From positions 71,501-135,500 of the forward strand of contig NZ_CP085158.1 in the NCBI RefSeq assembly GCF_022788695.1: a stretch of DNA of 64,000 bases, read 5' to 3'. This DNA comes from Pseudosulfitobacter sp. DSM 107133 (GTDB lineage Bacteria > Pseudomonadota > Alphaproteobacteria > Rhodobacterales > Rhodobacteraceae). This document shows positions 34,432-59,812 of the stretch, one piece after another. The notes under the pieces are model-generated. The model saw nothing but the letters and a program-made list of their open reading frames with translations. It had not been told where the DNA came from and made no database searches. The number at the start of each line of letters is the position of its first letter. Positions within the stretch are counted from its first letter, which is position 1. The translations under genes were made by a program, and so were the position numbers.

Positions 34432-35318
34432 CCCTATCGGCGTCCAATATTGACCCCTTTGTGCTGAGCAGGCCTGGCGCTGCGTAGCCCTCACATAGCG
34501 CAGCGGCGGCGGGCCTGCGGGGTTTCGGGTTGGCGCTATGCGCGGTTCTTGAAGCGCCAGCTTTCGTTGCCGGTCTCGACAATCTCGCAATGGTGGGTGA
34601 GGCGGTCGAGCAGCGCGGTTGTCATCTTGGCATCTCCGAAGACGCTGGGCCATTCACCGAAGGCCAGGTTGGTGGTGACAATGATCGAGGTGCGCTCGTA
34701 GAGTTTGCTGATCAGATGGAACAGCAATTGGCCGCCGGTCTGGGCGAAGGGCAGATAGCCCAACTTATCCAAGATCAGGAAGTCGAGCCGGGAGATCAGA
34801 TCAGCGGTTCGGCCTTGCCGTTCTGCCCTGGCTTCGGCGTCCAGCTTGTTCACCAGGTCGACAACGTTGAAGAACCGGCCGCGCCGCCCGGCCCGGATGC
34901 AGGTCCGAGCGATACTGACGGCAAGATGGGTTTTGCCGGTGCCGGTTCCACCGATCAGCACGAGGTTGCGTTGATGATCCAGGAAGTCGCCCGTGGCCAA
35001 GTCCCGGATCAGCGTCTCGTTCACCTCGGCTGCCTCGAAGTCGAACTCTTCCAATTCTTTCGCGAGCGGCAGCTTGGCAATGGTCATCTGGTATTTGACC
35101 GACCGTGCCTGCTTCTCCCTGATCTCGGCTGTCAGCAAATCCCCAATGATCTTCTGAGGCTCGTGCTGGCGTTTGACGGCGGTGGTCAGAACCTCGTCAT
35201 AGGCAGCCCTCATCCCGTAGAGCCGCAGCTTTCCCATCGCGTCTATCACGTCTGATCGTTCCATTCTTTGTTCTCCTCAAGCTGTCATATCGATTGCAGT
35301 CGGCAATCGGCTCACAGG
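34432..35318 (-). mobile_element. IS21-family remnant (istB only)
   Basis: It contains istB, a left end that includes ATTGACCCCTTT, a repeat type seen at IS21-family ends, and about 50 bases beyond the istB start that could encode the last residues of IstA. The rest of istA and the other end are missing, cut off by transposon A. The exact left border is uncertain by several bases. Confidence 0.7.
34536..35264 (-). CDS. istB: IS21-family helper ATPase IstB
   Basis: 242 residues, full length. Walker A is [15 protein letters not shown]; the Walker B region reads [12 protein letters not shown], where the family normally has DE. The Glu codon is here AAG (Lys), a single-base change that should hamper ATP hydrolysis. 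Sensor and C-terminal parts ([38 protein letters not shown]) are intact. Without IstA the gene cannot move its element. Confidence 0.9.
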
Positions 35319-36163
35319 TGTCGCGTTGCCCTTAAATCTGAGACGAGACGCTTTCGGCATCGTGTTTTGCCCTTAATTGCGAGATCAGCTGTTATGGGGC
35401 CTTTGCTTCTCGCGCGCCTTTGCGCGATGTGATCGACTGCGGCTAGCAATCGATGCTCCTTCTCGAAGGCGCGCAAAAGAGCAACCTTTGCATAGTCGTC
35501 GATGCCGGAGCTTGAGATGGCGGCTTTGATCAGTGGACGAGATTGGGCTGCATCAATGGCAGCAAGGCAAAACAGCCTCACTTTCGGTTTGTGGCTCTGA
35601 AGAGCAAACAACGGCGCCCCGTGGCAGCCCTTAAGTGACATGGCAAAGGTGACCGCGCGCATTGCGCGCCGAAGTTGCTTGGGGCTGCGTGATCGCGCGG
35701 CACACTCAAGCATCCCTGACCCGCGTCGCGCTCGGTAGATCAGTTTGTCGCATATCTGTTCCTCACCGGGTTTGCCAAGGGTCTGCACAAGTCCCGTCCC
35801 GCAGACCTGACAGTCGAATGCCCAGGCCCGCCTCCAATGCATGAGCGAAAGGCCCTCTCGGGAGCATTGCAGACAATGCTGGAATGGCATCTGGGCCGTC
35901 AGCGATGCTTCTCGTGGCGTCATTGCTGGAAAGGTCAAAGATCGCACGACATCTGGGGCGACCCGTGCGGCATTGGCAATCTTCTCTGCCGCAGCCGCGT
36001 CGATGCCGAAGTCCAAGGCGGTGCCATGCGTGATATCGACTTCGATATGAGCCAGCAGTTCGGCGTCATCACAGTAGTTGGCCGCAGCCAACCGAGACAG
36101 CCAACCTGACAACAACTCGTCTGGCAGCGGTGCGACAGTCTTTGGCAGCGGTCGCGGCGTCAC
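35312..36163 (-). CDS. tniQ: TniQ-family target-selection protein (module A)
   Basis: 283 residues from a GTG whose bases overlap the tniB stop (GTGA). The N-terminal TniQ segment PLPDELLSGWLSRLAAANYC is followed by a zinc-ribbon-like pair, CLQCSREG and CQVCGTG. TniQ/TnsD-type proteins choose the insertion target and recruit TniB. The last residues (RATRHL) are encoded by the transposon's terminal sequence, and the stop is in flanking DNA. Confidence 0.88.
   Translation of the reverse strand: MTPRPLPKTVAPLPDELLSGWLSRLAAANYCDDAELLAHIEVDITHGTALDFGIDAAAAEKIANAARVAPDVVRSLTFPAMTPREASLTAQMPFQHCLQCSREGLSLMHWRRAWAFDCQVCGTGLVQTLGKPGEEQICDKLIYRARRGSGMLECAARSRSPKQLRRAMRAVTFAMSLKGCHGAPLFALQSHKPKVRLFCLAAIDAAQSRPLIKAAISSSGIDDYAKVALLRAFEKEHRLLAAVDHIAQRRARSKGPITADLAIKGKTRCRKRLVSDLRATRHL
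35319..35385. repeat. Left end of module A with two TniA-site repeats
   Basis: Terminal TGTCGCG is followed by GCCCTTAAATCTGAGA (35328-35343) and GCCCTTAATTGCGAGAT (35369-35385). The tniQ gene reads through the whole end and stops 5 bases outside it. Confidence 0.8.
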
Positions 36164-37041
36164 ACCCCGGACTTCTCGAGCCGCCGATGGGCCTTCGCAT
36201 GGCGCGACCAAACCGGCGTCCATTTTGCGATCGCGTCATCAGTGATGCATTCCTCACCAGTCACAATCGCGTCGATGGAAAGATCCTTGATCAGGGCGAA
36301 GATGCGCGAGGTCACCCCGCCACTCAGCGCAAGTATCTGCTTGAGCGACTTGACTTTCAGATTGGATTTCTTCTCGAGGGGCATTGCCGCGATGAGTGTC
36401 TGGATCATGTCCGAGAACTCGGTATCGTCGCGCCAGTTCGGCAGGTGATGTTCGTCCAACCGCCTGGCAAGCTGGATATCACCACGGATGGCATCGACGG
36501 CCTCGCTGACCCCGAGGCAAACCAGTGACACTTCGAGTTCATTGCTGAGATACCGCAGAACATTGAGAAAGCGGCGCTGTTCGCGGTGGGTCCCGGCCAA
36601 AAGGTTGTGAACCTCGTCGATCATGATCATTCGCAGGCCAAGGTCGCGCAAGAGGGCGATGACACGGACCTCTAGGGAAGCCACATTTTGAGCGCGGGCG
36701 CTCAGTGCCGTTGCAGGGGCGCCGACGGCGGCCAGGATGTGCAGATAGAACCGCCGTTCGTCGGGTGCGGGCGGCGCTTGCAAAAGCAGCAGCGGTGTGC
36801 GGGTGATGCCTGACGCCGGGTCGTATTCCGGTGCGTACTTGCGCGACAGGTTGCGGGCGATCATCGTCTTTCCGATCCCGGAGGCGCCATGCACAAGAAG
36901 CCCAGGCATACGGGTTTGCCGTGGCGCTTCGATCATGCCCTGCAAGCGGTCCAACACCTGTTCGGCCCGTGGAAAGCCGATCCAGATGTCTGATTGAATG
37001 AGGGCGATCCGACCGTCTTCTTCAGTTGTTCCTGCCCTCAA
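36160..37041 (-). CDS. tniB: TniB-family AAA+ ATPase (module A)
   Basis: About 293 residues with Walker A GASGIGKTMIA and Walker B LRMIMIDEVHNLLAG, then GVSEAVDAIRGDIQLARRLD. It is the TnsC-like regulator that links target choice to the TniA transposase. The start is uncertain: a TTG at 37041, directly beyond the tniA stop, gives a protein of normal length, while the open frame to 37158 overlaps tniA on the same strand. Confidence 0.87.
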   Translation of the reverse strand: MRAGTTEEDGRIALIQSDIWIGFPRAEQVLDRLQGMIEAPRQTRMPGLLVHGASGIGKTMIARNLSRKYAPEYDPASGITRTPLLLLQAPPAPDERRFYLHILAAVGAPATALSARAQNVASLEVRVIALLRDLGLRMIMIDEVHNLLAGTHREQRRFLNVLRYLSNELEVSLVCLGVSEAVDAIRGDIQLARRLDEHHLPNWRDDTEFSDMIQTLIAAMPLEKKSNLKVKSLKQILALSGGVTSRIFALIKDLSIDAIVTGEECITDDAIAKWTPVWSRHAKAHRRLEKSGV

Positions 37042-37042
37042 T

Positions 37043-38677
37043 TCACCATCTCTCCACCTTGAACAATGGGCGCGATGTATCACCCGTATCGATCGGGCGC
37101 AGCCCTTCGGTTGACGAGACGGCCGAGTTGGCGCCCTCCAATGTTCCTTTTCTTTCACGGGTTCTGCGTTCGGCCTTCGTCAGGCCCCGGCTTTCAGCTT
37201 CGACCTGGCGTTGCTGTCGGATCAGCTCAGCCAGAACCAGCTCATTGGACCCGGACTTGTTAAGGGCACGAGCCTTCCTCATGGCTTCGCGGTATTCCCA
37301 GAGGGACACTGGCGGAATTTCCAGGTTTCTGTACCGCGCCTCAACATATCGGCCATCGTCCAGTTCGACCCAGATCATTGAGATATCGCGAGGATCGTAG
37401 CGAACGACCACCTTTCCATCCCCGCGCCCGATGTGGCCTGTCAGTGCATCGGACCAGTACCGTATCTGGAACAGATGGATGCCGTCACGCCTGATCTTGC
37501 GCAGTTCGCTCGGCAGGAAACTCACCTGAAAGGCTTCGATATCAAATGGGATGTCGCCTGTCATTTGTTCTGAGAGCGCCTCCCATTTGGCAACGGGCGT
37601 GCAGCCAAGACTGGAATGAATGCTGTTGTTGTAACGGCAGATTTCCAAAGCAAACCAACGATCGAATTCGCTCAACGTCATCACTGCCTGGCCTTCGGCA
37701 TCATAGTCGCCCTTGGTCGCGACCGAGGATTGCGTTGTTCCCGGCAACAGGTGAACGGCCCCCATCATCGTCCCGATCAAACGTTCAATGTGACCTCCGA
37801 AGTGAGGACTTCCCGGCGGCCGATAGATCAGATCAATCCCCCATTCCGCACATGCCGATCGAAAGGCCCGCGACCGGAAATCGCGGCCATTGTCGACATG
37901 GATGCTCTGCGGTTTGCCCTGTGCGGGCCAAGGAATATTGCACGCCAATTCCGCAAGAATTTCCGCCTTGGGGGCAACCGCCCGTGTCAGGCAAAGTGCC
38001 ACTGCCAGTCGCGAAGGGGCCTCGAGAGAAGTGTAGTATCCGGTTACCATCCGCGTTGCGATGTCGATCGCCAGCGTGACCCAAGGCCGCCCAATTGGTT
38101 GGCGTTCAAAGCTATCGACAACAATGATGTCCGCCGGCGTATGATCAATTTGGACGATCTCCAGTGGCATACTGGCCTTGTTCTCACCTGTGACCGGCGC
38201 AAATTTCTGGCGGGCCACCTTTGCGCCCTCGCGTGCTTTCGCAACTTCGCGGGCATCCATCGTATCCAGACGACGCTGAACCGTCCGACGCGTCGGCGGC
38301 TGCAAGCCCTGTTGCCAGCACGCGCTGCGGATTTCTGTCACGACGCGCGAGAGGCTCGGACGCTCCCGGCGCAAGAAATAGCGGCGAAGGTGCTCTTCGA
38401 TCACCGCTTCGACCTTGCTGGATATCAAGGCCGTACCGGCTGGACGACCCCGTTTCCGCGGAGCAAGGGCACTGGTGCGTCCACCCTCTTCCGCCAGCCG
38501 CTTTATCCAACGCCAGACCGTCGCCCTGCTGACACCAAGCTCCCAAACGGCGTCATTGATGCCACTTTCCAGACTGCCCGTACCTTTCAGATATGCCTGA
38601 ACAAGCGGACGCAGCACAACGGCCCTGCGCGCCTCTTCAGCACCAACGGCAACGGAGTCTTCGTCATCACTATCCAT
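37043..38677 (-). CDS. tniA: TniA-family DDE transposase (module A)
   Basis: 544 residues from the ATG at 38677. Two N-terminal HTH parts (WELGVSRATVWRWIKRLAEE) precede the rve integrase core with Asp178 (VQIDHT), Asp262 (HVDNGRDF) and Glu298 (GGHIERLIGTMMG), giving a D,D-35-E triad like TnsB/TniA/Mu. A Mu-type beta-barrel region follows. It binds the end repeats and joins ends to target. It is full length with all catalytic residues. Confidence 0.93.
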   Translation of the reverse strand: MDSDDEDSVAVGAEEARRAVVLRPLVQAYLKGTGSLESGINDAVWELGVSRATVWRWIKRLAEEGGRTSALAPRKRGRPAGTALISSKVEAVIEEHLRRYFLRRERPSLSRVVTEIRSACWQQGLQPPTRRTVQRRLDTMDAREVAKAREGAKVARQKFAPVTGENKASMPLEIVQIDHTPADIIVVDSFERQPIGRPWVTLAIDIATRMVTGYYTSLEAPSRLAVALCLTRAVAPKAEILAELACNIPWPAQGKPQSIHVDNGRDFRSRAFRSACAEWGIDLIYRPPGSPHFGGHIERLIGTMMGAVHLLPGTTQSSVATKGDYDAEGQAVMTLSEFDRWFALEICRYNNSIHSSLGCTPVAKWEALSEQMTGDIPFDIEAFQVSFLPSELRKIRRDGIHLFQIRYWSDALTGHIGRGDGKVVVRYDPRDISMIWVELDDGRYVEARYRNLEIPPVSLWEYREAMRKARALNKSGSNELVLAELIRQQRQVEAESRGLTKAERRTRERKGTLEGANSAVSSTEGLRPIDTGDTSRPLFKVERW

Positions 38678-38708
38678 CGATGTTTGCCGCACATGTCTGT
38701 GAACCCTG

Positions 38709-38823
38709 TCTCAGGTTTAAGGGCAAAAATATCGGAATTAAAGGCAAAATCTCATATTTAAGGGCAAAGCACAGCCGTTGATTTCGTTGGATTTCCCATC
38801 TCACAATTAAGGGCTACGCGACA
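38709..38823. repeat. Right end of module A with four TniA-site repeats
   Basis: Four copies, read on the minus strand, resemble TTTGCCCTTAAATNTGAGAT; the outermost copy is joined to TGTCGCG at the tip. Spacings are irregular (about 20-50 bases). The right end has more sites than the left, the asymmetry known from Tn7-type ends. The outermost bases also supply the stop codon of the module B tniQ. Confidence 0.8.
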
Positions 38824-39440
38824 GGACGGGTCACGCTAACACCGACCGCGGCAAGCGCCATTAACCTTTCGCGCTCGTTCCCCGAAGTGAGCGCCCTCAG
38901 GTTCCCGATCTCCAGAACTGCCATGAGATGCATGGTCAAATCCACCCGGCGCAACCGCGCGAGATTGTTCGTGGCGACAGCCGACTTCAGAGCTTCCGCG
39001 CCGCGTAAAGCGCGACCATGAAGTCCGCTTGGTACATCTTTGGCTGGATACTTGGTTGCCAGGGCCTGACCGCAGGTTTCGCAGGTCATCGACCATGCCA
39101 AGCGCCAATGGCGAAGCACCAGATCGGGTGTTTTCTCAACACACCTCGGACAATACTGGAAGTCATGCGGCGACACCCATCGGGCGGATTGATGCTTCGT
39201 GTCCGGAAGGGCCATGGCGAGGATCTCATGCGCGGGCCGCTGAACCGCTCGGCAAAGCAAGGCCCAGGTCGCTCCCTGCAAGTCACCTGCATATTCCGGC
39301 ACCCTGCCCTGCCCCAAACCAAGATAGCCGCAAAGTTCTTCAGCGGAGCAGTGATTGGCCTTCGCCAATCGCCCGATCCAGCTGGACAGAAGCTCATCGC
39401 GTGCAGGCGGCGGTCGAAACGGTAGCGATCTGACGGTCAC
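38814..39440 (-). CDS. tniQ: TniQ-family protein (module B), C-terminally truncated
   Basis: 208 residues; the module A homologue has about 280. It starts with a GTG overlapping the tniB stop. PPARDELLSSWIGRLAKANH and the zinc pairs CPRCVEK and CETCGQA are present. By alignment the protein breaks off around VSVTRPVA, where the last codons and TAG are supplied by the end of module A. About 80 C-terminal residues are gone, so activity is doubtful. Confidence 0.82.
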   Translation of the reverse strand: MTVRSLPFRPPPARDELLSSWIGRLAKANHCSAEELCGYLGLGQGRVPEYAGDLQGATWALLCRAVQRPAHEILAMALPDTKHQSARWVSPHDFQYCPRCVEKTPDLVLRHWRLAWSMTCETCGQALATKYPAKDVPSGLHGRALRGAEALKSAVATNNLARLRRVDLTMHLMAVLEIGNLRALTSGNERERLMALAAVGVSVTRPVA

Positions 39441-40330
39441 CGGAATGCTGCGGCGGGTTGGCGAGGGATGTTCCAGGCATGCTTTGCCCAGACCGGCTGC
39501 CAGGACTGAACCGCTTCGTCGGTGATCCGCTCCTCACCCGTCTCGATCGCTTCTATGGCCAAAGACTTGATCATGATGAACACGCGAGAGGTGACGCCGC
39601 CCGTCACTTTCAGGATCGTTCGAAGCGACCCAACCGTCAGGCCAGACCGCTGCTCGAGTGCCATTGCGGCAATCAACGTCTGGATCAGACGGGAGAACTC
39701 CACGTCGTCCTCCCAGAGCGGCAGGTAGTGTTCGTCCAGCCGACGGGCCAGTTGGTCGTCACCGCGGACGGCCTCGAGGGCCTCGTTGACACCGAAAACG
39801 ACAAGCGACGCGCAGAGATCGTTGGACAGAAACCGTAGCATGTTCAGGAACCGTAGCATGTTCAGGAACCGTCGTTGCTCCCGGTAACTGCCGGCAAGCA
39901 GGTTATGCACTTCGTCGATCATCAGCATCTTCAGGTCCATGTCCCGAAGATGGCTTAGCGCGCGCACCTCAAGCTCGGACACCGTGTGACGCCCCCACAT
40001 CGGCGCCCCGATCGTCGACAGGATGTGTTGATAGAACCGGCGCTCATCCGGCGCGGGCGGCGCCTGAACCAGCAGGATGGGTGTCTTCGTGACGCCCAGT
40101 TCGGCATTGTACTGCGTCGGATATTTGCTCGCCATGCGTTTGGCGATCATCGTCTTGCCGATGCCAGAGCTTCCATAGACCATCAGCCCCGGCATCCGGC
40201 TCTGCTGAGGCATTTCCATCAGGGATGTCAATCGGTTGAGAACGATGGTGGCACGGTCAAACGCGATCCAATGATCGCCGCGGATACGGTCAATTCTTTC
40301 GTCTGGGGTCATTAAACTCATCAATCTCAT
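39437..40330 (-). CDS. tniB: TniB-family AAA+ ATPase (module B)
   Basis: About 297 residues with Walker A GSSGIGKTMIA and Walker B LKMLMIDEVHNLLAG. Compared with modules A and C it has six extra residues: RRFLNMLRFLNMLRFLSND carries FLNMLR twice, from an exact 18-base tandem duplication (39831-39866). Start is uncertain; ATGs at 40330, 40321 and 40312 are in frame and all overlap the tniA end. The frame reaching 40489 overlaps tniA on the same strand. Confidence 0.85.
   Translation of the reverse strand: MRLMSLMTPDERIDRIRGDHWIAFDRATIVLNRLTSLMEMPQQSRMPGLMVYGSSGIGKTMIAKRMASKYPTQYNAELGVTKTPILLVQAPPAPDERRFYQHILSTIGAPMWGRHTVSELEVRALSHLRDMDLKMLMIDEVHNLLAGSYREQRRFLNMLRFLNMLRFLSNDLCASLVVFGVNEALEAVRGDDQLARRLDEHYLPLWEDDVEFSRLIQTLIAAMALEQRSGLTVGSLRTILKVTGGVTSRVFIMIKSLAIEAIETGEERITDEAVQSWQPVWAKHAWNIPRQPAAAFR
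39831..39866. repeat. 18-base exact tandem duplication inside tniB of module B
   Basis: AACCGTAGCATGTTCAGG occurs twice without a gap. It adds FLNMLR to the helix following Walker B. The other two TniB proteins have a single copy in this place. Confidence 0.92.
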
Positions 40331-41918
40331 AGGTTGGCAGATCAGGGTTGCCTGTATCAATCGCGAACATTTCGCGCGATGGATCGCGGCGCGGTTGGTG
40401 CCGGGGAAGCCGAGCACCTCTTTCGTTTTCCAACCGGGCAGTCCGCGTCTTTTGGCGCGCCGCCTCAGCCAGCCGCCGCTGCGCGTCAATCAATTGGAAT
40501 AGGACCCGCTCATTGATCCGGCCACAATGTTTATCATGCCATTCTTTCCGCGCCCGCCGACTTTCCCAAAGCGATATACGCGGGTGGCTGAGATCCCGGT
40601 ACCGGGCCGAGATCACGCGGCCATCACCGGTGATGACCCAGATCTGCGACAAGTCTCGCGGATCGTATTTCACCTGTACCTTACCATGCCGGCGTCCGAC
40701 CAACGACGCGAAGGCATCACTCCAGTAGTGCACCCCGAAGAGCGTGATCCCGGTGCGCCCGAGCTGACGCCACTCAAAGGGCAGGAAGCTTGTCCGAAAG
40801 GCATCGACATCGACAATCTGCCGTCCCGCAGTATCCCCGCGCATGTCCGCCCATGCCGCAAGCGGCGTTCGCCCGAGGGCTTCGTGAACCGTATTGTGGT
40901 AGCGAAAGATTTCCAGATGAAGCCAATCCTCGAACTCGACCAGGGTCAGGGCCGCATGTTTCTCACTGTCATAGTCGCCCTTCTCGACGATTGAGGACTG
41001 GGTGGTCCCGGGCAGCACATGAACGGCACCCATGGTCGTTCCGATCAGCCGTTCGACATGGCCACCATAGTGTTTGCCGCCAAGCGGACGATACTCGACA
41101 GCAATGCCCCAATCTTCGCAGGCCTTTCTGAAGGCGTCGCTGTGAAACTCCTGCGCATTGTCGACGTGGATCGCCTTCGGGATGCCAGCCGTCGGCCAAA
41201 CCAGCTCTTCCAATGTCCCCGGAATGTGCACCGATTTCCGGCGCACGCAGTGATCGAGACACAATGCGATCGACAAGACAGATGGCTCGTCGAAAGTTAC
41301 ATAGACCCCGAGAACGATCCGGGTCGCGACATCAATGGCAACCGTCAAATAGGGGCGCGCAAGCGGCCGTCGATTGACGTGATCGACCAACGTAATGTCT
41401 GAAGTTGTATGATCGATCTGAACGACTTCCAGCGGGGCTGAAACTTCAAGGCGGCCAGGACGCGCGGCAAAAATCTTGTCAGCCTCCTCAGCCCCGCGCC
41501 GTTTCCGGAAGACCTCTCGCTGATCCATAGCGTCTAGACGGGCTTTCACCGTTCTCCGGGTCGGCGGCTGAAACCCCTTCGCCTCGCACTCGGCACGGAT
41601 CTCACGCCAGATGCGAAGAAAGCTCGAACGCTCGCGGACCAGATAGTATCTTCGCAGGCTCTCATCGATGATGATTTCGACGTCTTGGGCAATCCGTTTC
41701 GACCCACGTTTCGGCCCGCGACGGTCCAACTCTAACGCCGTGGCACGTGCATCGTTCTCTCTCAGACGCCGGTAGAGCGACCATGTGTGGCTTTTCGCCA
41801 AACCCAGTTCCCAAGCGGCATCTCCGATAGCCGCGCTGATCGGCTCACCTCTTTTCTCAAGCTCCAGGATCGGCCGAAGAACCGCCGCACGGTGTTTCGC
41901 AAGACGCTCGTTTACCAC
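40290..41918 (-). CDS. tniA: TniA-family DDE transposase (module B)
   Basis: 542 residues from a GTG at 41918 that has a good GAGAGGG ribosome site 6 bases before it. It has the HTH region WELGLAKSHTWSLYRRLREN and the integrase core with VQIDHTTSD, HVDNAQEF and GGHVERLIGTTMG. The catalytic triad is intact. It is related to the module A protein but clearly a different lineage, and its end repeats also differ (TGTACCCTTAATT). Confidence 0.92.
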   Translation of the reverse strand: MVNERLAKHRAAVLRPILELEKRGEPISAAIGDAAWELGLAKSHTWSLYRRLRENDARATALELDRRGPKRGSKRIAQDVEIIIDESLRRYYLVRERSSFLRIWREIRAECEAKGFQPPTRRTVKARLDAMDQREVFRKRRGAEEADKIFAARPGRLEVSAPLEVVQIDHTTSDITLVDHVNRRPLARPYLTVAIDVATRIVLGVYVTFDEPSVLSIALCLDHCVRRKSVHIPGTLEELVWPTAGIPKAIHVDNAQEFHSDAFRKACEDWGIAVEYRPLGGKHYGGHVERLIGTTMGAVHVLPGTTQSSIVEKGDYDSEKHAALTLVEFEDWLHLEIFRYHNTVHEALGRTPLAAWADMRGDTAGRQIVDVDAFRTSFLPFEWRQLGRTGITLFGVHYWSDAFASLVGRRHGKVQVKYDPRDLSQIWVITGDGRVISARYRDLSHPRISLWESRRARKEWHDKHCGRINERVLFQLIDAQRRLAEAARQKTRTARLENERGARLPRHQPRRDPSREMFAIDTGNPDLPTYEIDEFNDPRRKN

Positions 41919-41963
41919 GCAAATCCCTCTCCCCAATAGATCGACACTTATCCACAACTCAGA

Positions 41964-42088
41964 CCATACGGCAATTAAGGGTACAGTATGCTAATTAACG
42001 GTACAATATGAAAATTAAGGGTACAAACCGCCATTGATTTCACGGGGCAATTTCAGACACGATTCTGATTAATTAGGGAACAGTGACA
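41964..42088. repeat. Right end of module B with three TniA-site repeats
   Basis: Repeats at 41964-41985, 41985-42005 and 42006-42025 share ATTAAGGGTACA (one copy has ACGG), spaced 20-21 bases. The tip AGGGAACAGTGACA ends at 42088. Flanking bases ACAGC follow; the ACAGG left of module A differs by one base. Confidence 0.75.
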
Positions 42089-42156: not shown

Positions 42157-42208
42157 ACTGACCCTCTTCTGCCGGTATTAAGACAGGGAAACGCGGGCCT
42201 GCGTCTCG

Positions 42209-43129
42209 TTAGAGGCCAGTGTCCGCGCCAAAATCAAAGGTCTCGAAATCTCGAATGTAAGCCTCGAAAAAATCGCTGAAGGTGGCGATCAGGGGCGGCA
42301 GCGCGTCGTAAGGGGGATAATAAAGCATCAGGTTCAACGGCAAAAGGTCCCAGTCCGGCAACACCTCGACAACCTTCTTTTTGTTGATTGCATCCTGCAC
42401 AAGGAACCGCGGCAGGTTAACCATGCCATTGCCCGCAGCGGCCAGCGCCAAAAGCAGCTCGCCATTGTTGGACACAATTTCCGTTCCCGCCCGGAATGTG
42501 CGCGCAGTGCCGGTTCTGGACATCTTCCATGTCTCGGCATTGCCGGTGCCGTAGGACAGGCAATGGTTCGGATCAAGCTCATCGGGATTCTGTGGCGTGG
42601 AAATCCGGTCAAAGAGCGCAGGCCCTGCTACGATGGCGCGCGGAACCATGCAGATCCGCCGCCAGATTGTCGACTTGTCGGTAGGAGGTCCGGAAATCCG
42701 GATCGCGAGGTCGCAGCTTTCGTCAATGATATCGACCAGCGTGTCGGTCAACTGCACGTCGACCTGTATCTGCGGATAGGCAAGCCGGAAGCTGTCGATC
42801 AATCCCGGCAACAGCCGCATCCCGAAAGACAACGGCGCGTTGAGTGACAAACGTCCCCTGTCAGGATGGGTTGCGCTGGTGATCTCTTGGGTCACGCGGT
42901 CGAAATCCTCAAGAACCGGCCGGTAGCGCGCGGCCACCAGCGCACCGGCTCCCGTCAGGGAAATCTGACGCGTGGTGCGTGTCAGCAGCTGCTGGCCCAG
43001 ATCCTCCTCAAGCTGCGCAACAATGCGGGTGATTGATGCCGGTGTCATACGCAGGCTGCGCGCTGCGCCGACAAAACTGTCCTGGGCTATGACTTCAAGA
43101 AAGACGCGAATGGGTTTCAAGCTCTGCAT
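42209..43129 (-). CDS. LysR-family regulator of the ring-cleaving dioxygenase operon
   Basis: 306 residues from the ATG at 43129 (a TTG three codons earlier is less likely). The HTH reads SLKPIRVFLEVIAQDSFVGA with RMTPASITRIVAQLEEDLGQ, followed by a full effector domain with FGMRLLPGLIDSFRLAYPQIQ. It is divergent from the dioxygenase gene, and an ACTATTA-N10-TAATAGT site lies between. It is the likely sensor for quinones or a phenolic compound. Confidence 0.9.
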   Translation of the reverse strand: MQSLKPIRVFLEVIAQDSFVGAARSLRMTPASITRIVAQLEEDLGQQLLTRTTRQISLTGAGALVAARYRPVLEDFDRVTQEITSATHPDRGRLSLNAPLSFGMRLLPGLIDSFRLAYPQIQVDVQLTDTLVDIIDESCDLAIRISGPPTDKSTIWRRICMVPRAIVAGPALFDRISTPQNPDELDPNHCLSYGTGNAETWKMSRTGTARTFRAGTEIVSNNGELLLALAAAGNGMVNLPRFLVQDAINKKKVVEVLPDWDLLPLNLMLYYPPYDALPPLIATFSDFFEAYIRDFETFDFGADTGL

Positions 43130-43137
43130 GGCGATCA

Positions 43138-43161
43138 ACTATTATCAAATATCGTAATAGT
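43138..43161. promoter_or_regulatory. LysR-type operator
   Basis: Perfect 7-base arms ACTATTA and TAATAGT are separated by 10 bases, with the T/A symmetry typical of LysR sites. It sits 9 bases upstream of the LysR ATG and about 85 bases before the dioxygenase gene, placing it for autoregulation and activation. Confidence 0.6.
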
Positions 43162-43246
43162 AAATGAAACTACATTTCTATTCTTTGCAATTAATAAATC
43201 TACTACCTAGGGGGCATAACAGCCACATCCGGCGAGGGAGATAGAG

Positions 43247-44179: not shown

Positions 44180-44189
44180 GGAGGTCGAC

Positions 44190-49529: not shown

Positions 49530-49535
49530 GCCCAT

Positions 49536-49564: not shown

Positions 49565-49588
49565 CTTCTTTTGACGCTGGAGAACATC

Positions 49589-51553: not shown

Positions 51554-51595
51554 CCCTTGGCCCCAGCGGCCCCCCCTCACACAGGAGACTGGCCA

Positions 51596-51988: not shown

Positions 51989-52284
51989 CAGCCCCCAAAA
52001 TCACCTATACCGAGACCGACAGCAAAGGCCGCTACGCCGCCACCGTTGAGGGCAAGGCAGGCGAGGCGGAACTGACCACCTCGAAAGTGTCCGACACGCT
52101 GATCATCGCGGATCACACCGATGTTCCCGACAGCATGCGTGGCACTGGCGTCGGCCGTGCGCTGGCCGAGCAACTGATCGCGGATGCCCGTGCCAAGGGC
52201 CAGCGCATCGTGCCGCTGTGTCCTTTCGTGCGCGCCCATTCCATGAAACACCGCGAAGAGCTGGCCGATGTCATCCAGTGGTAA
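51985..52284 (+). CDS. Small GNAT-like N-acetyltransferase (YjdJ type)
   Basis: 99 residues. The motif MRGTGVGRALAEQLIADARA is the acetyl-CoA-binding V/R-x-x-G-x-G/A signature, and VPLCPFVRAH is the common YjdJ-type end. Substrate unknown. It overlaps DoxX (ATGA) and the MFS gene (17 bases). Confidence 0.8.
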   Translation: MTAPKITYTETDSKGRYAATVEGKAGEAELTTSKVSDTLIIADHTDVPDSMRGTGVGRALAEQLIADARAKGQRIVPLCPFVRAHSMKHREELADVIQW

Positions 52285-53863
52285 CCCCCCCGCGACCAGC
52301 AGCGCCTATGCGCCGTTTGGTCAGGCCGCCTTTGCCCTGCTCTGGACCGCGACGCTGATCTCGAACATCGGCACGTGGATGCATGATGTCGGGGCAGGGT
52401 GGCTGATGACCACCCTTAATCCCAGCCCTGCGGTTGTCACATTGGTGCAGGCGGCGACGACCCTGCCTGTGTTCTGCTTTGCCTTGCTGGCCGGTGCATT
52501 GGCCGACCGTCTGGACAAGCGGCGGATGCTGTTGGGGATCAACGTTGTGCTGCTGTGTGTTGTCAGTTTGCTGACCGTTCTGGTCTGGCTAGAGGCGATG
52601 ACGCCGGGGCTGCTGATCGCCTTTACGTTGGTGATTGGCACCGGTGCGGCGTTTATGGCGCCGGCCTGGCAGGCCATTGTGCCGCAGCTGGTGCCGCGTG
52701 AACAGTTGAAACCTGCGATTGCGCTGAATTCCATGGGCATCAATATCTCGCGTGCGATTGGCCCGGCCATTGCGGGCGCGCTGATTGCCAGCGTCGGGCT
52801 TGCCGCCCCCTTTGCCATGAACGCACTCAGCTTTCTGGTCATTCTAACCGCCCTGACCCTTTGGCGGCCGGAAAAGACAGAACGGCGGCGTCCGACGGGA
52901 ACGCTATTGTCGGATATGGCAACCGGCCTGCGCCACGTCCGTCACAACCCTGCGATGCTGGCGACAGCGGTGCGGGCCGCGGCGTTCTTCCTCTTTGCCT
53001 CGGCCTATTGGGCGTTGCTGCCATTGATTGCGCGCAGTGCCGAAGGCGGTGGTTCGACCCTTTACGGGGCATTGATGGCATTGATCGGTGCGGGCGCTGT
53101 GACGGGGGCGGTGCTTTTGCCGCGCTTGCAGCGGATCGCGTCTTCGGACGCGACGGTGCGGATCGGCACAGGCGGAACAGCACTGGCACTGATCCTGATG
53201 GCGCTGGCGCAAGTTCCTGTGGCGCTGCTGGCGGCGGCGTTCATTGGCGGTATGTCGTGGATCGCGGTGCTGACCTCTTTCAACGTCTCGGCGCAGACGG
53301 CTCTGCCCAACTGGATACGGGCGCGGGGGCTGGCCGTGTTTCTGATGGTGTTCTTCGGCTCCATGGCTTTGGGGTCGATCCTCTGGGGGCAAATCGCGGC
53401 GGCGACCTCGATCGCATCGGCCCTGTTCATCGCCGCTGTCGGGCTTGGCCTTGGGGTTGTGCTGACGCGCAAGCTACCCGTTGGTCAGGGAGAGGCGCTG
53501 AATCACAGCCCCGCGTCCATCTGGCCCGAAGCGCCGGCGCAGGCCGAGGATCAAGGCGACGACCAGCCTGCGATGGTCATCGTCGAATACCGCATACCGC
53601 CAGAGAACAAAGCCGGGTTTCGCGCCAAGATGAAATCCGTGGCCAAGGAACGACTGCGCAACGGGGCGACACGGTGGTATATTCATCAAAGCGTGGAAGA
53701 GCCCGAAGTGTGGCTGGAAACCTTTCATCTGCGCAGCTGGGCCGAGCATCTGGAACATCACGACCGTGTCAGCGTGGCCGACATGGACCTGCACAAGGAC
53801 CTGCGCACACTGCACAAGGGACCGGACGCGCCGCTTGTGCGCCACTATATCGGGTCGCGGTGA
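52268..53863 (+). CDS. MFS transporter with C-terminal monooxygenase-like domain
   Basis: 531 residues. Residues 1-400 are a 12-helix major facilitator of the EntS/MFS_3 group (GTWMHDVGAGWLMTTLNPSP, GALADRLDKRRML). The C-terminal ~110 residues (VIVEYRIPPENKAGFRAKMK, TRWYIHQSVEEPEVWLETFH) form a ferredoxin-like dimeric domain of the antibiotic-biosynthesis-monooxygenase type, a fusion known in this transporter group. It is a candidate exporter of a toxic product. Confidence 0.87.
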   Translation: MSSSGNPPATSSAYAPFGQAAFALLWTATLISNIGTWMHDVGAGWLMTTLNPSPAVVTLVQAATTLPVFCFALLAGALADRLDKRRMLLGINVVLLCVVSLLTVLVWLEAMTPGLLIAFTLVIGTGAAFMAPAWQAIVPQLVPREQLKPAIALNSMGINISRAIGPAIAGALIASVGLAAPFAMNALSFLVILTALTLWRPEKTERRRPTGTLLSDMATGLRHVRHNPAMLATAVRAAAFFLFASAYWALLPLIARSAEGGGSTLYGALMALIGAGAVTGAVLLPRLQRIASSDATVRIGTGGTALALILMALAQVPVALLAAAFIGGMSWIAVLTSFNVSAQTALPNWIRARGLAVFLMVFFGSMALGSILWGQIAAATSIASALFIAAVGLGLGVVLTRKLPVGQGEALNHSPASIWPEAPAQAEDQGDDQPAMVIVEYRIPPENKAGFRAKMKSVAKERLRNGATRWYIHQSVEEPEVWLETFHLRSWAEHLEHHDRVSVADMDLHKDLRTLHKGPDAPLVRHYIGSR

Positions 53864-53894
53864 CGCACCCCCTGAATTTGCAAAGGAGACTCTC

Positions 53895-54857
53895 ATGAGC
53901 TGGAACCCGACCCATACCCCCGAATGCCCCACCTTCGGGTGTGACGCGCTGGAAACACTGATCATTCCGCGCGCCCGCGATCTTGGCGGCTTTGACGTGC
54001 GGCGCGCGTTGCCTTCGCCGAACCGCCAGATGGTCGGCCCGTTCATCTTTTTCGATCAGATGGGGCCGGCCGAGTTTATCACCGAAGGCGGTATCGACGT
54101 GCGTCCGCACCCACATATTGGTCTTGGCACCGTGACCTACCTCTACAATGGCGAGTTCGAGCACCGCGACAGCATCGGCACGCACCAGATGATCTATCCC
54201 GGAGAAGTAAACTGGATGGTCGCTGGCAAGGGGGTCACCCACTCGGAACGCACCAGTGCCGAAACCCGCGCGACGCGCCACAAGCTGTTTGGCATCCAGA
54301 CGTGGATTGCCCTGCCGGAAGATCGCGAAGAAATGGAACCCGATTTCGAACACCACAAGGAAGCCGCACTGCCGGTGTTGCGCGACAACGGGGCGCAAGC
54401 ACGGCTGATCCTCGGGTCGGCTTACGGCGAAACCAGTCCCGTCACCATGCAATCCGAAACCTTCTATCTGGATGTGCAGCTGGAACCCGGTGCAGCCTTT
54501 CCCCTGCCAGACAATCATGAGGACCGAGGGATCTATATTACCCAAGGCAGCATCGAAGTGGCTGGGGATCAATTCGACGAGGGGCGGATGATGGTGTTCC
54601 GTCCCGGCGACAAGATATCGGTCACGGCGGGCCCCGCGGGGGCGCGCCTGATGGCGTTGGGTGGAGCCACGATGAACGAAGAGCGGTATATCTGGTGGAA
54701 CTTCGTATCGTCGTCCAAGGACCGTATTGAACAGGCCAAGGAAGACTGGAAAGCGGGCGATTGGACAAAGGGTCCGTTCCGGCTGCCGCCCGGTGACGAT
54801 GCTGAATTCATCCCCATTTCTGCAGAGTTGGACCAGACCAGCCCGAACAGGATGTGA
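53895..54857 (+). CDS. Pirin family protein
   Basis: 320 residues, bicupin. The pirin signature GPFIFFDQMGPAEF is followed by the metal ligands in VRPHPHIGLGTVTYL and GVTHSERTS, with the second cupin DRGIYITQGSIEVAG. Pirins can cleave quercetin or regulate redox enzymes. A GGAG ribosome site precedes the ATG at 53895. It is the last gene of the plus-strand run. Confidence 0.9.
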   Translation: MSWNPTHTPECPTFGCDALETLIIPRARDLGGFDVRRALPSPNRQMVGPFIFFDQMGPAEFITEGGIDVRPHPHIGLGTVTYLYNGEFEHRDSIGTHQMIYPGEVNWMVAGKGVTHSERTSAETRATRHKLFGIQTWIALPEDREEMEPDFEHHKEAALPVLRDNGAQARLILGSAYGETSPVTMQSETFYLDVQLEPGAAFPLPDNHEDRGIYITQGSIEVAGDQFDEGRMMVFRPGDKISVTAGPAGARLMALGGATMNEERYIWWNFVSSSKDRIEQAKEDWKAGDWTKGPFRLPPGDDAEFIPISAELDQTSPNRM

Positions 54858-55117
54858 AAGGTCGAAATCGCGAGCGTCGAAGCGACTAAAGATCATCTTT
54901 GCGGCTCGGACTTCAGGCGAAATGCACCGTTGGCATTTTGGACCGAAAATGGGCTTCGCTGCTTCTATTTTGCGGCGAAGCCTGATGCCTGCTGATTTGC
55001 ACCCATAACTGAGCTGGTAGGGTGCATAACTTCTAATGAGAATTGTGCGGTTTTAACCTACCCCTAAAGCAGATAGCAGCAGGGGTATTAAAGCTCAATT
55101 TTGGGTTTCTATTCAAG
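54858..55117. other. Intergenic region between pirin and IS3 stub
   Basis: No gene recognised. It is a sequence of mixed composition leading up to the IS3 end at 55118. Confidence 0.5.
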
Positions 55118-55437
55118 TGAACCGCACCGGGTTTGCCGGAGGCTCCAACTCGTGAGAAGGATGGAGCATCATGAGCAAGACGACGAACAAGTATTCCCCG
55201 GAGGTGCGCGAGCGAGCCGTTCGCATGGTTCTGGACAATCCCGGGCGGCATGAGAGCCGTTGGTCAGGGATCGTTTCGGTATCGTCGAAGATCGGCTGTG
55301 CGGCGAACACGCTGAACGATTGGGTCAAGAAGGCCGAAGTGGATCGGGGTGATCGCGCCGGTGTCACGACCGAGATGGCCGAGAAGCTGAAGGCGCTGGA
55401 GCGGGAGAACCGCGACGTCGAATTCGCTCAGGTCTAG
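55118..55437 (+). mobile_element. IS3-family remnant (left end and orfA)
   Basis: The end TGAACCGCACCGGGTTTGCC is followed by the start of orfA. The element is cut off inside orfA at about 55413, where DUF1403-like DNA begins. OrfB and the right end are absent. The OrfB fragment at 33511 is from the same family but cannot be shown to come from this copy. Confidence 0.75.
55171..55437 (+). pseudogene. IS3-family OrfA, truncated
   Basis: 88 residues starting MSKTTNKYSPEVRERAVRMV with an HTH, SSKIGCAANTLNDWVKKAEV, and the leucine-zipper start EKLKALERENRD. The normal end of OrfA and the frameshift site to OrfB are missing. Confidence 0.85.
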
Positions 55438-55974
55438 CAATTGATCCCCGACATGCGCCGCAGCGCGGATCGCGGGGCGTAGGCGGGTCAGGAACATCTC
55501 GACCGCGTCGCCCGCCCCCTTGGCCCGCAGCTTGGGTGCGACCGCCTTCAGATGCGCCGCCCGACGCGCGAGGTCGGCGGCCTGCCCCACGGCCTCGATC
55601 ACCGAAGAGATGATCCCAACCGAGTGCTTGGGCGAGGGCCGCATCCGCGAGGATCAGCGCTGCTTCGTCTGAACGTGGCGCCTCGCGCAGAACAGCTTAC
55701 AGCGCCATCGCGGCGCGGGTCACCGGCGCCCCCTTTCCCGCTCAGGCCGGCCGGAAACCGCCACACAAGCCTCGGCCGCGCGCAGCGCGAGCCGGCCCCG
55801 CAACAAAGCTTGGGGCACGTCCGCGCGTCCCAACACAAGATGCAGGTGATTCAGCGCGGCGCCTGACAAAAACGCAACATCTTCAAGGGTTTCAGGATGT
55901 GCCGAGGTGACCCAGGCGGGTAACCGGGGTAGTGTATTGAGGCCGCTGGTGTGATCCTGTCGGGCAAATGTCAT
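55438..55974 (-). pseudogene. DUF1403-like gene, frameshifted and truncated
   Basis: From a start at 55974 the frame encodes LPRLPAWVTSAHPETLEDVA and RGRLALRAAEACVAVSGRPE, then stops. In other frames the family's segments continue: RSDEAALILADAALAQALGW, then VIEAVGQAADLARRAAHLKA with VAPKLRAKGAGDAVEMFL. Two frame changes and internal loss are needed to join these, and the C-terminal end is removed by the IS3 stub. DUF1403 is of unknown function. Family call is from memory of its motifs. Confidence 0.65.
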
Positions 55975-56051
55975 GCTTGGAGCCTACATCGACGCGGCGC
56001 TTTTTATCAGAAAATAGCACACAAGCCGCCCCGCCATTCCCTTCTGAGTGA

Positions 56052-56078
56052 TGTCCAATAAGTTTGCATTATCGGACA
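56052..56078. promoter_or_regulatory. Palindromic 27-base site resembling a serine-resolvase crossover site
   Basis: TGTCCAATAA and TTATCGGACA form near-perfect inverted arms around an A+T-rich centre, the layout of Tn3-type resolvase site I. A 14-base part of it, ATTATCGGACATAA, recurs at 59704-59717 over the tniA start of module C. It lies 47 bases outside the tip of that module. Confidence 0.45.
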
Positions 56079-56124
56079 TAAAAAGATACGCTGAAAATCA
56101 GTTTAATTTCATCGCTGGATTCAC

Positions 56125-56237
56125 TGTCGGATAGCCGGAATTCATGAGATTCAAGCACTTCCCTGAAAAACGAACCGGGGTTCATGAGACTCTGTACCGG
56201 TATTTATGAGACTGGATGAGTCGGTATTTGTGAGACT
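56125..56237. repeat. Left end of module C with four direct repeats
   Basis: TTCATGAGATT, TTCATGAGACT, TATTTATGAGACT and TATTTGTGAGACT begin at 56141, 56181, 56201 and 56225. The last two are also the coding sequence of the TniQ tail and produce the repeated peptide QSHKYR. They are the probable TniA binding sites. Confidence 0.78.
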
Positions 56238-57201
56238 GGCGCTGTCGTGCGGCTTTTTCGGCAGTCTGACGTGCTCTCTCTTCGCGCTCAGCGCGCCAGA
56301 ACCGGGCCGAGATGCGTCTCCTCAACGAGAGAGGCCATGAGCGGAGCGCCTCCCGGACCCGCACTTGTCCGTTCATGTCACTTGCGAGCAGCACGTCAAT
56401 CGCTCGGGCCACGGGATCTTCGACGATCCGGCCGATGCCGACCGTCAGCGCGAAACACTGCAAGAGCGAGCCTTGCGCCAGGGCGTGGAGACCGGGACGC
56501 ACTGGCTTAGCAAGCACTGGCGCCACCTGATCGTATTCGGGGACAACGACCGTCAGCGCCTGCCGGAGGATCGGCGTGGTCAGAAAATCATGGTAGTCCC
56601 GTCGGTCTTTCAGAGACATGCGTGGCTGCTCAGAGACGTTCGGCGGCGAGGCCTGGCGATGCCGTGCCGTCAGAACCTGAAGCACTTCGGGCGCTTCCAG
56701 GTCTTCCTGCCCCGCGCCGCGCGCCCAGGCATCGAGATGCGCGGCACCAATCTCGGCATGCCCTTCAAGTTTCTTGAAGCGATCCGTACCGAACCGGTCG
56801 GACAGGGTCTCGCCGGTGGCGTCCCGAAACTCCACACCATGCACCGGGCAGCGAAATCGCCACGGCAGCGCGGCGGCTTTGCGATGCAGGTCTTCGGGAC
56901 AGTGCGGGCATGGAGACCGGTTCTTCCGCGCGATCATCATGCGCGCCGCCGCCCCCAACTCCCGGAAAGTCATGGACTGCACCGCTTCGGGCGAAAGGCC
57001 GGTCCGAGCCGCGATCAGAGCCCCCTGCCCTTCTGAAAGCCGCCATTCCAGGTCGAACACGCCCTGCCCCTGCAGGCCAAGTGCTGTGACGAATTCCGAA
57101 ACCGTCATCGCGTAGAACGGGGCCATGCGCGCGGCCCAGGAAGACAGTCGTTCATCGACCTCGGGGGCGTAAACAACCGGCAGGCGCCCGCACCCCGTCA
57201 C
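56182..57201 (-). CDS. tniQ: TniQ-family target-selection protein (module C)
   Basis: 339 residues from a GTG overlapping the tniB stop. The N-terminal YAPEVDERLSSWAARMAPFY and a modified zinc pair, CPHCPED and CPVHGVE (one Cys replaced by His), identify a diverged TniQ. The C-terminus reads SHKYRLIQSHKYRYRVS, translated from the end repeats of the transposon. It is longer than the A protein. Confidence 0.86.
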   Translation of the reverse strand: MTGCGRLPVVYAPEVDERLSSWAARMAPFYAMTVSEFVTALGLQGQGVFDLEWRLSEGQGALIAARTGLSPEAVQSMTFRELGAAARMMIARKNRSPCPHCPEDLHRKAAALPWRFRCPVHGVEFRDATGETLSDRFGTDRFKKLEGHAEIGAAHLDAWARGAGQEDLEAPEVLQVLTARHRQASPPNVSEQPRMSLKDRRDYHDFLTTPILRQALTVVVPEYDQVAPVLAKPVRPGLHALAQGSLLQCFALTVGIGRIVEDPVARAIDVLLASDMNGQVRVREALRSWPLSLRRRISARFWRAEREERARQTAEKAARQRQSHKYRLIQSHKYRYRVS

Positions 57202-58076
57202 ACCGGCTCTCCCAAGACCGCCTGCAACCGGTCGCCGCCCAGAATATCGCGCGAGAGAATGCGTTCCTCGCCGCTTTCGATGGCGGCGATCGCCAGCTGC
57301 GACAGGATCGAAAAGATGCCCGAGGTGATGCCGCCGGTCACCTTGATGATCCGCGCGAGCGCGTGGCCGTCGATCTCGCTTTGGTGCCGAAGCGGCAGTG
57401 TGCGGGTGAGCGTGCTCATCAGCCCGTTCAGATCCTCGCCCTCCCGCCAGGGCGGCAACGCGAAGGCCTCGAAACGGCGCACCAGTTGATCATCGGTACG
57501 CAACGCGTTGCGGGCTTGGGCGGTGCCGACGCAAACCAGAGGGACGCGCAGCTCGTTGCCCAGAAAGCGCAGCATGTTCAGGAATCGCGCCTGTTCGCGG
57601 ACCGTGCCGGCCTGCAGGCTGTGAATCTCGTCGATGACCAGCATCCCCGGACGCAATTCGGCGAGCAGACGCAAGGCCAGGCTTTCCAGCACAGACAGTG
57701 TCGCCCGCGGCGGCTCCGGGGCACCAATCGCCGCCAGGATCCGGCGGTAGAAGCGCGATTCATCAGGCCCAGACACCATCTGCACGGCGACGACCGGCAT
57801 ATGCAGCCGTCCGCTGGTCTCGTCGAAGCTCGATGCGTGATCGCGGGTGAACTTCTCGATGATCATCGTCTTGCCCATGCCGCTGTCACCGACAATGAGC
57901 AGGTTCGGCATGCGGGCGCGATTGGGAAACGACATCAACGTTTCCAGCTTCTCCAAGGCGGCCTCGGCCCTGGGATAGGAGATCCAGCGGTCGGCGCGAA
58001 TCCGGTGAATGCGCTCCTCGGCGCTGAGCGCGGCGATCTTGCACGCTCCCGGATAGAGATGCGGGAACTCAGTCAT
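57198..58076 (-). CDS. tniB: TniB-family AAA+ ATPase (module C)
   Basis: 292 residues from the ATG at 58076, which overlaps the tniA stop by 8 bases. Walker A is GDSGMGKTMIIEKF, Walker B MLVIDEIHSLQAG, and the sensor GTAQARNALRTDDQLVRRFE. It has the single FLNMLR helix copy. The open frame reaching 58169 would overlap tniA further and is not preferred. Confidence 0.88.
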   Translation of the reverse strand: MTEFPHLYPGACKIAALSAEERIHRIRADRWISYPRAEAALEKLETLMSFPNRARMPNLLIVGDSGMGKTMIIEKFTRDHASSFDETSGRLHMPVVAVQMVSGPDESRFYRRILAAIGAPEPPRATLSVLESLALRLLAELRPGMLVIDEIHSLQAGTVREQARFLNMLRFLGNELRVPLVCVGTAQARNALRTDDQLVRRFEAFALPPWREGEDLNGLMSTLTRTLPLRHQSEIDGHALARIIKVTGGITSGIFSILSQLAIAAIESGEERILSRDILGGDRLQAVLGEPV

Positions 58077-59715
58077 CCTCGTACCACTCCTCGACCTTGA
58101 AGCCGGGGTGGCTGAGGAACGGGCTCCCCTCTCCGTCCGGCGCAGGCAGGGCATCTCGCGGTGCGGCATCCGGTGTTACATCGATCATCGGCAGAGGGGC
58201 GAGATGCAACCGCCGAGCCTGATGGCGCCGTATCGCCTTCGTCTGCCGCTCGGCGCTGTCGACGAGGTCGCGCTGCGCCTCGATCGTCCTGAAAATCAGC
58301 TCCTCATCTACCGACCGGCGCCCGGCCTCGCGCAAGGCGCGCCGCGCCGCGCGGTGCTCCCAGAGCGTGATCGCAGGCCGTGTCATATCCGCGGGTCTCG
58401 CTTCGATGATCCCGTTCTCAGTCAGCACGAAAATGCGAGAGAGATCGCGCGGGTCGTATTTAAGCGTGAACTTGCGGCTTTCCCGGCCCATCAGCCAGCG
58501 CAACTCGTCCGCCCAGTAGCGGATGTGGAAGAGATGCAGCCCGTCACGCTGCAAGACACGGCTCTCGGAAGGCAGAAAATCGACCAAAAACTGCCTGAGA
58601 TCGGTCGGCATGCGAAGCCGGGCCTCATCCACCCGGGCCGCCCAAGCCGCCGCAGGTGTGGTTTCCAGCGCAGAGTGGACCCGCACATGGTAGGAGCCGG
58701 TGATCTCGAGAGCGAGCCAGGTTTCCAGTTCGCCGAGCGTCATCACCGCCTCGGCCTCGGCATCGAGATCGCCGCGCTCGAAGATGTTCGAGAAATGCGA
58801 CCCCGGCAGCAGGTGAACCGCCCCCATCATTGTGCCGATCAGGCGCTCGATATGGCCGCCATAGCGCGGTGTACCTGGCGGACGGTACCGCAGTTCGATC
58901 TGGTACTCTGCACAGGCGAGCCCGAAGGCGCGGGCATGGAATTCCGCGCCGTTGTCCACATAAATCGCGTTCGGGATGCCCCGCGTTGGCCAATCCGTGC
59001 TGATACCTCGCGCGGTGAGCCAATGCGATTTGTCCATTACCGTATGGGTCAGACACAGTGCGACGGCCAGTAGCGATGGCGGTTCCAGAGACAGGTAAAA
59101 CCCCAGAACCATGCGGGTATTCACGTCGGTCGCGACCGTCAGCGTTGGCCTGCCGAGCGGACGTCGTGTCACCGGATCTACCACTGTCACATCAGCCTTG
59201 GTGTGGTCGATCTGGACGATATCCAGCGGATCGTTGGCGACCAGCCCCCCAGGCGTGGCCAGATAGCGCCGCTCGGCCTTGTCCTTGCCCTCTCGTCGGG
59301 CCATCAGTTTAGCTTGGTCATGTTGCTCCAGCCAGCGCCCCAGACGGCGGATCGAGGGTGGGGCCAGCCCTTGCGCCCGACAATCGGCAGCAACTTCGCG
59401 CCAGAACCGTGTCCTGGTGGGCTTACGACGGGAAGCATAAAACCCCTTGAAATGGCGGGACACGATCGTTTCCACCAACGGGTCCAAGGGCTGCATGCCC
59501 GGTTTAGGGCCCCGTGTATCCCGGAGCAATGCAGAGGTCCGCCCATCCTCGCGGAACTGCTTCACCAGGCGAAAGAGCGTGGATCGGCTGACATTCAGCT
59601 GATGCATGGCCCATTCGACAGCGCCTGGGCTGAGCTGGATCGGTAATTCCGCCAGCACCCGGGCGCGAAACTCCGCCTCTTCCCAATCCTTGTCAGCTGG
59701 AAAATTATCGGACAT
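58069..59715 (-). CDS. tniA: TniA-family DDE transposase (module C)
   Basis: 548 residues from the ATG at 59715 (MSDNFPADK). The N-terminal HTH is HQLNVSRSTLFRLVKQFRED in form, and the core has IVQIDHTKADVTVVD, YVDNGAEFHARAF and GGHIERLIGTMMGAVHLLPG. The catalytic triad is intact. It is the most divergent of the three TniA proteins in the window, and its end repeats are different again. Confidence 0.92.
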   Translation of the reverse strand: MSDNFPADKDWEEAEFRARVLAELPIQLSPGAVEWAMHQLNVSRSTLFRLVKQFREDGRTSALLRDTRGPKPGMQPLDPLVETIVSRHFKGFYASRRKPTRTRFWREVAADCRAQGLAPPSIRRLGRWLEQHDQAKLMARREGKDKAERRYLATPGGLVANDPLDIVQIDHTKADVTVVDPVTRRPLGRPTLTVATDVNTRMVLGFYLSLEPPSLLAVALCLTHTVMDKSHWLTARGISTDWPTRGIPNAIYVDNGAEFHARAFGLACAEYQIELRYRPPGTPRYGGHIERLIGTMMGAVHLLPGSHFSNIFERGDLDAEAEAVMTLGELETWLALEITGSYHVRVHSALETTPAAAWAARVDEARLRMPTDLRQFLVDFLPSESRVLQRDGLHLFHIRYWADELRWLMGRESRKFTLKYDPRDLSRIFVLTENGIIEARPADMTRPAITLWEHRAARRALREAGRRSVDEELIFRTIEAQRDLVDSAERQTKAIRRHQARRLHLAPLPMIDVTPDAAPRDALPAPDGEGSPFLSHPGFKVEEWYEDD

Positions 59716-59743
59716 AATGTTGCTCAACGTGCGGATGCTGGAG

Positions 59744-59812
59744 AGTCTCATCAATAGCGACTCAAATCGCTTCCAGTCTCACTTACCCTGAATCGGTTTC
59801 AGAAATGCGACA
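59744..59812. repeat. Right end of module C with two repeats
   Basis: AGTCTCATCAATA (59744-59756) and AGTCTCACTTACC (59775-59787) are inverted relative to the left-end repeats. The tip ATGCGACA ends at 59812 and overlaps the ATG of the tyrosine-recombinase frame. Confidence 0.68.

Follow-up and report, generated by a model that had tools for sequence, protein, structure and literature searches.

A cargo-free TniABQ transposon that is likely to hunt a plasmid tyrosine-recombinase site

The stretch of DNA analysed here, hereafter the window (64,000 nucleotides, positions 71501-135500 of contig C5, which is 135,500 bases long and belongs to a genome of 5.2 Mb assembled as 13 contigs), carries three TniA-TniB-TniQ modules, A, B and C. 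Judged by their ends and proteins, these are independent, cargo-free and distantly related TniABQ transposons, B having been cut by A. It is likely that C hunts the site of a plasmid tyrosine recombinase and that this recombinase resolves the fusion that C would create.

Pfam matched TniQ, TniB and an rve/Mu-C DDE transposase in each of the three modules. A sequence-only reading of this DNA had reported that A, B and C share gene order and strand (tniA-tniB-tniQ) and that a GTGA overlap joins tniB to tniQ; both observations hold, the former by Pfam and sequence, the latter as plus-strand TCAC at 36160, 39437 and 57198. It had further taken the modules to be diverged, none being a recent copy of another. 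In line with this, pairwise identities (A-B, A-C and B-C, respectively) are 46%, 43% and 44% for TniA, 57%, 42% and 44% for TniB, and 31%, 25% and 28% for TniQ, and a TniA tree of 43 rows, in which the window's C is represented by the identical row L016_10340, groups A and B as sister clades (97/91), with C in a separate clade. No near-identical recent duplication appears, A, B and C lying in different TniA clades, and no module is a fragment of another, B being an incomplete member of its own family, truncated by A. Three end types are indeed present, as had been proposed, but the true ends lie outside the repeats that were quoted: TGTCGCG..CGCGACA for A, TGTCACTG for the right end of B and TGTCGG..CCGACA for C. 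As to origin, the suggested independent insertions are retained as those of three element families, while a composite island around the genes at 42-55 kb is not. The statement that no attachment gene accompanies the modules is correct for tRNA genes, of which a search of the window found none, but it misses the dif-like repeat and tyrosine-recombinase context of C. An Rfam search of the window gave no match at gathering score, and no cas families were found among the 30 window ORFs searched with Pfam.

Element C and its surroundings are made up as follows.

55264..55950, minus strand: broken DUF1403 gene (Pfam DUF1403, 6.4e-14), on the plasmid side of the recombinase locus
56051..56079, plus strand: dif-like inverted repeat ATGTCCAATAA-GTTTGCA-TTATCGGACAT, 29 bp, proposed crossover site and identity break-point
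56120..56124, plus strand: left target repeat TTCAC, whose partner is on contig C8, to the right of C there
56125..59869, minus strand: element C, 3745 bp, with neither cargo nor a resolvase gene, ends TGTCGG..CCGACA
56182..57201, minus strand: tniQ of C (Pfam TniQ, 1e-11)
57198..58169, minus strand: tniB of C (Pfam TniB, 1.8e-68)
58069..59754, minus strand: tniA of C (Pfam Mu-transpos_C, 2.3e-13)
59805..60998, plus strand: tyrosine-recombinase ORF (Pfam Phage_integrase, 1.1e-14), right of C
59870..59874, plus strand: right target repeat GATTC, no partner found in this genome

The tniQ, tniB and tniA genes occupy 56182-59754 of 56125-59869 and thus leave no space for a resolvase gene in C nor, with TnsA as the point of comparison, for any further gene; a serine recombinase at 61054 lies outside the ends of C. 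Copies of 3745 bp with both ends were found at 83-100% identity, as was a non-autonomous short form of 338 bp that has both C ends and is situated 32 bp away from the dif-like repeat. An alignment shows a mid-TniQ block that is conserved among members of the C clade and missing in A, B and two further TniABQ types, D and E. The best E value in a PDB sequence search with TniQ of C was 0.055, which we take as chance.

The position of C relative to the repeat argues for site hunting. For each of the 14 distinct left ends of the C type, the repeat is no more than 120 bp away and in one orientation, with the tniQ end toward the repeat, at a variable distance of 32-55 bp (45 bp in the window). This count takes distinct left ends flanked by 90 bp or more, the window and contig C3 copies, which share their flank, being counted once; at least one of the 14 (L145) was entered through the repeat search, and L134 likewise. 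In the same kind of scan, run with short patterns and counting distinct flanks, the repeat was found at none of the 57 A, 24 B and 6 D ends, nor in any of 400 random 150-bp stretches. Members of clade E, whose TniA is ~46% identical to that of C, lie exactly 27 bp from the repeat in five of five uncut cases (L163, L164, L166, L196 and L214). At L145 and L156, an E-type end 27 or 28 bp from the repeat is interrupted by C, and at L014 C likewise lies within an E left end. From these positions, the insertion point seems to be set by its distance to the repeat and not by a sequence hit.

Empty sites indicate that the repeat and the recombinase are located outside element C. A pattern search for the repeat returned 40 sites in 32 of 394 genomes of the family, compared with none for the reversed-pattern control, and in the six genomes with more than one repeat, every repeat is on a separate contig. 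Thirty of the 40 repeat loci were read; 7 of them have an end of type C or E next to the repeat, and the other 23 have no such end. On D. shibae pDSHI01, DUF1403, repeat and recombinase are found together without C or any other transposon. The recombinase is XerC/XerD-like in the sense that NCBIfam models match it far below their cut-offs; R, HxxR, H and Y were found by eye in its sequence. The listed start of its ORF falls within the right end of C (59805-59869) and the conserved part outside, so that C may supply the start codon; a related Ruegeria recombinase gene is annotated with the same start arrangement. Among the best plasmid rows, the broken DUF1403 gene aligns to DUF1403 genes in four pieces, and part of this region (55160-55440) resembles what we take to be the start of an IS3-type orfA. 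No paper was found for 'DUF1403' in open-licence full texts.

The Mesorhizobium (L210) and Methylocystis (L211) relatives have the order recombinase - tniABQ - DUF1403 - scpB; a repeat scan of L210 found nothing. An additional recombinase-family gene stands beside tniQ in Ancylobacter (L213), and a distant relative in Agrobacterium (L212) is annotated next to a serine-type recombinase instead. In Ruegeria L013, C is beside the recombinase, but both its left end and the repeat are lacking. Clade F, with a TniA ~34% identical to that of C, ends 17 bp from the scpB stop, on the other side of the same DUF1403-scpB-recombinase locus (L198, 4550-6233; L215, 8584-10138). The TniA of R751, taken for Tn402, groups with clade F and not with A, B or C, by a long-branch join that we consider unsafe. 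In the TniA survey, no more than three candidates were scored in any one genome, and 57 of 71 places were fetched.

Only one of the 32 A, B and C copies with both flanks has matching 5-bp target repeats, the count for C being 0 of 7. Because matching repeats were missing around individual copies, flanks were compared crosswise between contigs. On contig C3, TTCAC and AATGC stand left and right of C..C, these being the outer flanks of a tandem C pair; on contig C8, AATGC and TTCAC stand left and right of C; in the window, TTCAC and GATTC. The 5-bp repeats match crosswise, C3 left with C8 right (TTCAC) and C8 left with C3 right (AATGC), an exchange between contigs that is known from one genome. 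Joins were scored against a panel of 24 'empty' stretches, which included one occupied site, L145. The C3-left/C8-right join aligns without gaps to the native empty site L150, and the C8-left/C3-right join has a gapless junction versus L146. None of the three joins of a copy's own left and right flanks has a gapless junction to a native site; that of the window scores 59 versus 57 for a crosswise join, but needs a 2-base gap. Left of the repeat, the window and C3 copies are alike at 192 of 250 bases (77%; 58 differ); from the repeat to C they are identical at 74 of 74 bases, and within C at 3745 of 3745. On this comparison, the exchange boundary is the dif-like repeat. Crosswise repeats and identity from the repeat inward are both predicted by replicative transposition followed by crossover at two repeats. 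In the tandem on contig C3, a complete C abuts a second C that lacks its first 22 bp; if C inserts into a sister copy at its left end, a structure of this kind is one of the two products expected. The recombinase gene on contig C3 is mostly missing, so that the recombinase would have to act in trans there.

We propose that TniB and TniQ would sense the recombinase-bound repeat, that TniA would join C replicatively to the target, fusing two plasmids, and that the plasmid recombinase would split the fusion at the two repeats just outside C. As C is without a resolvase, splitting would fall to the resident plasmid recombinase. From the data above, we infer that this enzyme acts on the dif-like repeat and that replication takes part in C transposition. 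A and B have no target of this kind, and their transposition probably likewise results in fusions or other rearrangements. A more general proposal, which we regard as an even bet, is that minimal resolvase-free TniABQ elements have come to rely on a tyrosine recombinase resident on the plasmid for choosing the target as well as for resolving cointegrates. Such elements would spread from plasmid to plasmid within the cell, swapping the spacer between site and element each time, with the newest copy nearest the site; the mid-TniQ block of the C clade would be the recombinase sensor, and A and B would be general plasmid-fusing elements.

The tyrosine recombinase could instead be the transposon's own resolvase, of the tnsR type, with the repeat as its res site. 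Tn7-like elements without TnsA are described as often bearing a serine or tyrosine resolvase (PMC8649781, PMC11406308), and the window's recombinase ORF does start within the right end of C. However, the TGTCGG ends delimit a 3745-bp unit without the recombinase, most of the repeat loci read (23 of 30) are without C and E ends, and in Cereibacter C is separated from the recombinase by a CcdAB pair. This makes an own resolvase very improbable, and element ends and empty sites contradict the recombinase as part of C. It is also conceivable that C does target the site while its flanks were exchanged by homologous recombination between plasmids and not by the recombinase. Recombination left of C would likewise swap the halves of the target repeats, and the flanks are 77% identical; recombination within C, on the other hand, would restore matching repeats, which none of the seven C copies has, and identity begins at the repeat. 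We hold homologous recombination to be an unlikely source of the exchange and favour resolution of the fusion by the plasmid recombinase.

With regard to all three modules, a composite island that mobilises the catabolic genes at 42-55 kb would be in keeping with modules that lie close together in the same orientation. It is contradicted by the three distinct end types, by the missing end of B and by the occurrence of the block in Ruegeria plasmid pSD25 (93.6% identity across 98% of the query), where it is flanked by an IS3 and an MFS gene, without tni modules at its sides; we find such an island scarcely credible. Insertion of A, B and C as independent elements is the reading kept here. The block itself (42173-54888) holds LysR, ring-cleaving dioxygenase, hydrolase, amidohydrolase, DoxX, MFS and pirin genes.

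Elements A and B adjoin each other.

35319..38823, minus strand: element A, 3505 bp, cargo-free, ends TGTCGCG..CGCGACA
35312..36223, minus strand: tniQ of A (Pfam TniQ, 3.3e-8), its ORF extending 7 bases beyond the left end of A
36160..37158, minus strand: tniB of A (Pfam TniB, 8e-59)
37043..38692, minus strand: tniA of A (Pfam rve and Mu-transpos_C)
38824..42088, minus strand: element B remnant, with right end TGTCACTG at 42088 and no left end
38814..39440, minus strand: truncated tniQ of B, its last 10 bases being the end of A
39437..40489, minus strand: tniB of B (Pfam TniB), with a 6-residue in-frame duplication
40290..41957, minus strand: tniA of B (Pfam rve/Mu-C transposase)

Among the 20 plasmid matches listed for A, 18 cover ~51% of the query and stop at the ends of A, a bare length that rules out A as a cargo-bearing element. 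Copies of 3505-3506 bp occur in other genomes at 88-93% identity. Toward its end, the tniQ gene of A departs from the usual reading frame (303 aa versus 263 aa in a relative). A non-autonomous short form with both A ends measures 347 bp; the short forms of A, B and C are at loci L030-L032, L097 and L056. Matching target repeats were seen in 1 of 17 A copies (L118, CGCGG). The A-type pair L115/L116 has 3434 bases in common in the right flank and none in the left, and the pair L030/L032 has 640 in the left and none in the right; this one-sided sharing would fit fusion or deletion products. An istB (IS21 helper) ORF at 34536-35264 lies directly left of A; the plasmid matches show istA-istB pairs, and no istA was identified in the window. 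An empty site for A plus B was not found, pSD25 differing on both sides.

Complete relatives of B are ~3.66 kb long and begin with their own TGTCACTG left end. In the window, the right end of A falls within the tniQ gene of B and the remainder of B is missing, its TniQ having 208 aa versus 310 aa in a full relative. A non-autonomous short form with both B ends measures 307 bp, and none of eight B copies has matching target repeats.

Elements of the Tn5053/Tn402 type are described as res hunters, which target the res sites of serine resolvases and carry their own tniR (PMC7765201, PMC3960245). C resembles them in having TniABQ and in its oriented insertion near a proposed plasmid resolution site; their replicative cointegrates, 5-bp target repeats and resolution aided by the target-site resolvase (PMC7765201, PMC3960245) would have counterparts in C, whose 5-bp repeats match crosswise between two contigs. 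Unlike these elements, C lacks tniR, space for one and cargo, and the recombinase that it targets belongs to the tyrosine and not to the serine class. The ISAjo2 group of the IS1202 family, termed 'dif site hunters', shares with C the TGT/ACA ends, a single orientation and insertion beside a Xer-type site; its members have one transposase gene, a length of ~1.5 kb, a position 5 bp from the XerC site and intact target repeats (PMC10132070), whereas C is a three-gene element at 32-55 bp from the repeat. Tn6022 with TnsF is likewise a Tn7-like element with targeting tied to the tyrosine-recombinase fold, but TnsF is an inactivated, transposon-encoded comM selector (PMC10293859) and the recombinase of C is a resident gene. 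Tn5469 is also cargo-free with a single TniQ, a likeness drawn from its description alone, and, unlike C, is cyanobacterial (PMC11406308).

C works like the Tn5053 res hunters and the ISAjo2 dif hunters, without the defining features of either, and the open-licence full texts searched yielded no TniABQ element hunting a tyrosine-recombinase site. It would link res hunting by TniABQ elements with dif hunting by IS1202-type elements, hitherto described separately, and would offer natural evidence that the target's own recombinase completes transposition. The role of an external recombinase in Tn5053 transposition has been described as unclear (PMC3960245) and becomes testable on the short, fixed target of C. 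Our findings also suggest that tyrosine 'resolvases' beside TniABQ that have been assigned to the transposon may in some cases be targets. Fusions, whether unresolved or resolved by the recombinase, would contribute to plasmid shuffling in Roseobacteraceae and Hyphomicrobiales.

Contig C8 of the same genome additionally carries two D-type TniABQ copies (L019, 7303-10896; L020, 1632-5225) that are 99.97% identical across 3600 bp and enclose ~8.7 kb in which IS3-type, TetR, phosphoesterase and ABC-uptake genes are found. GGATT forms the outer 5-bp flank on either side of the pair, an arrangement like that of a composite transposon or an unresolved fusion.
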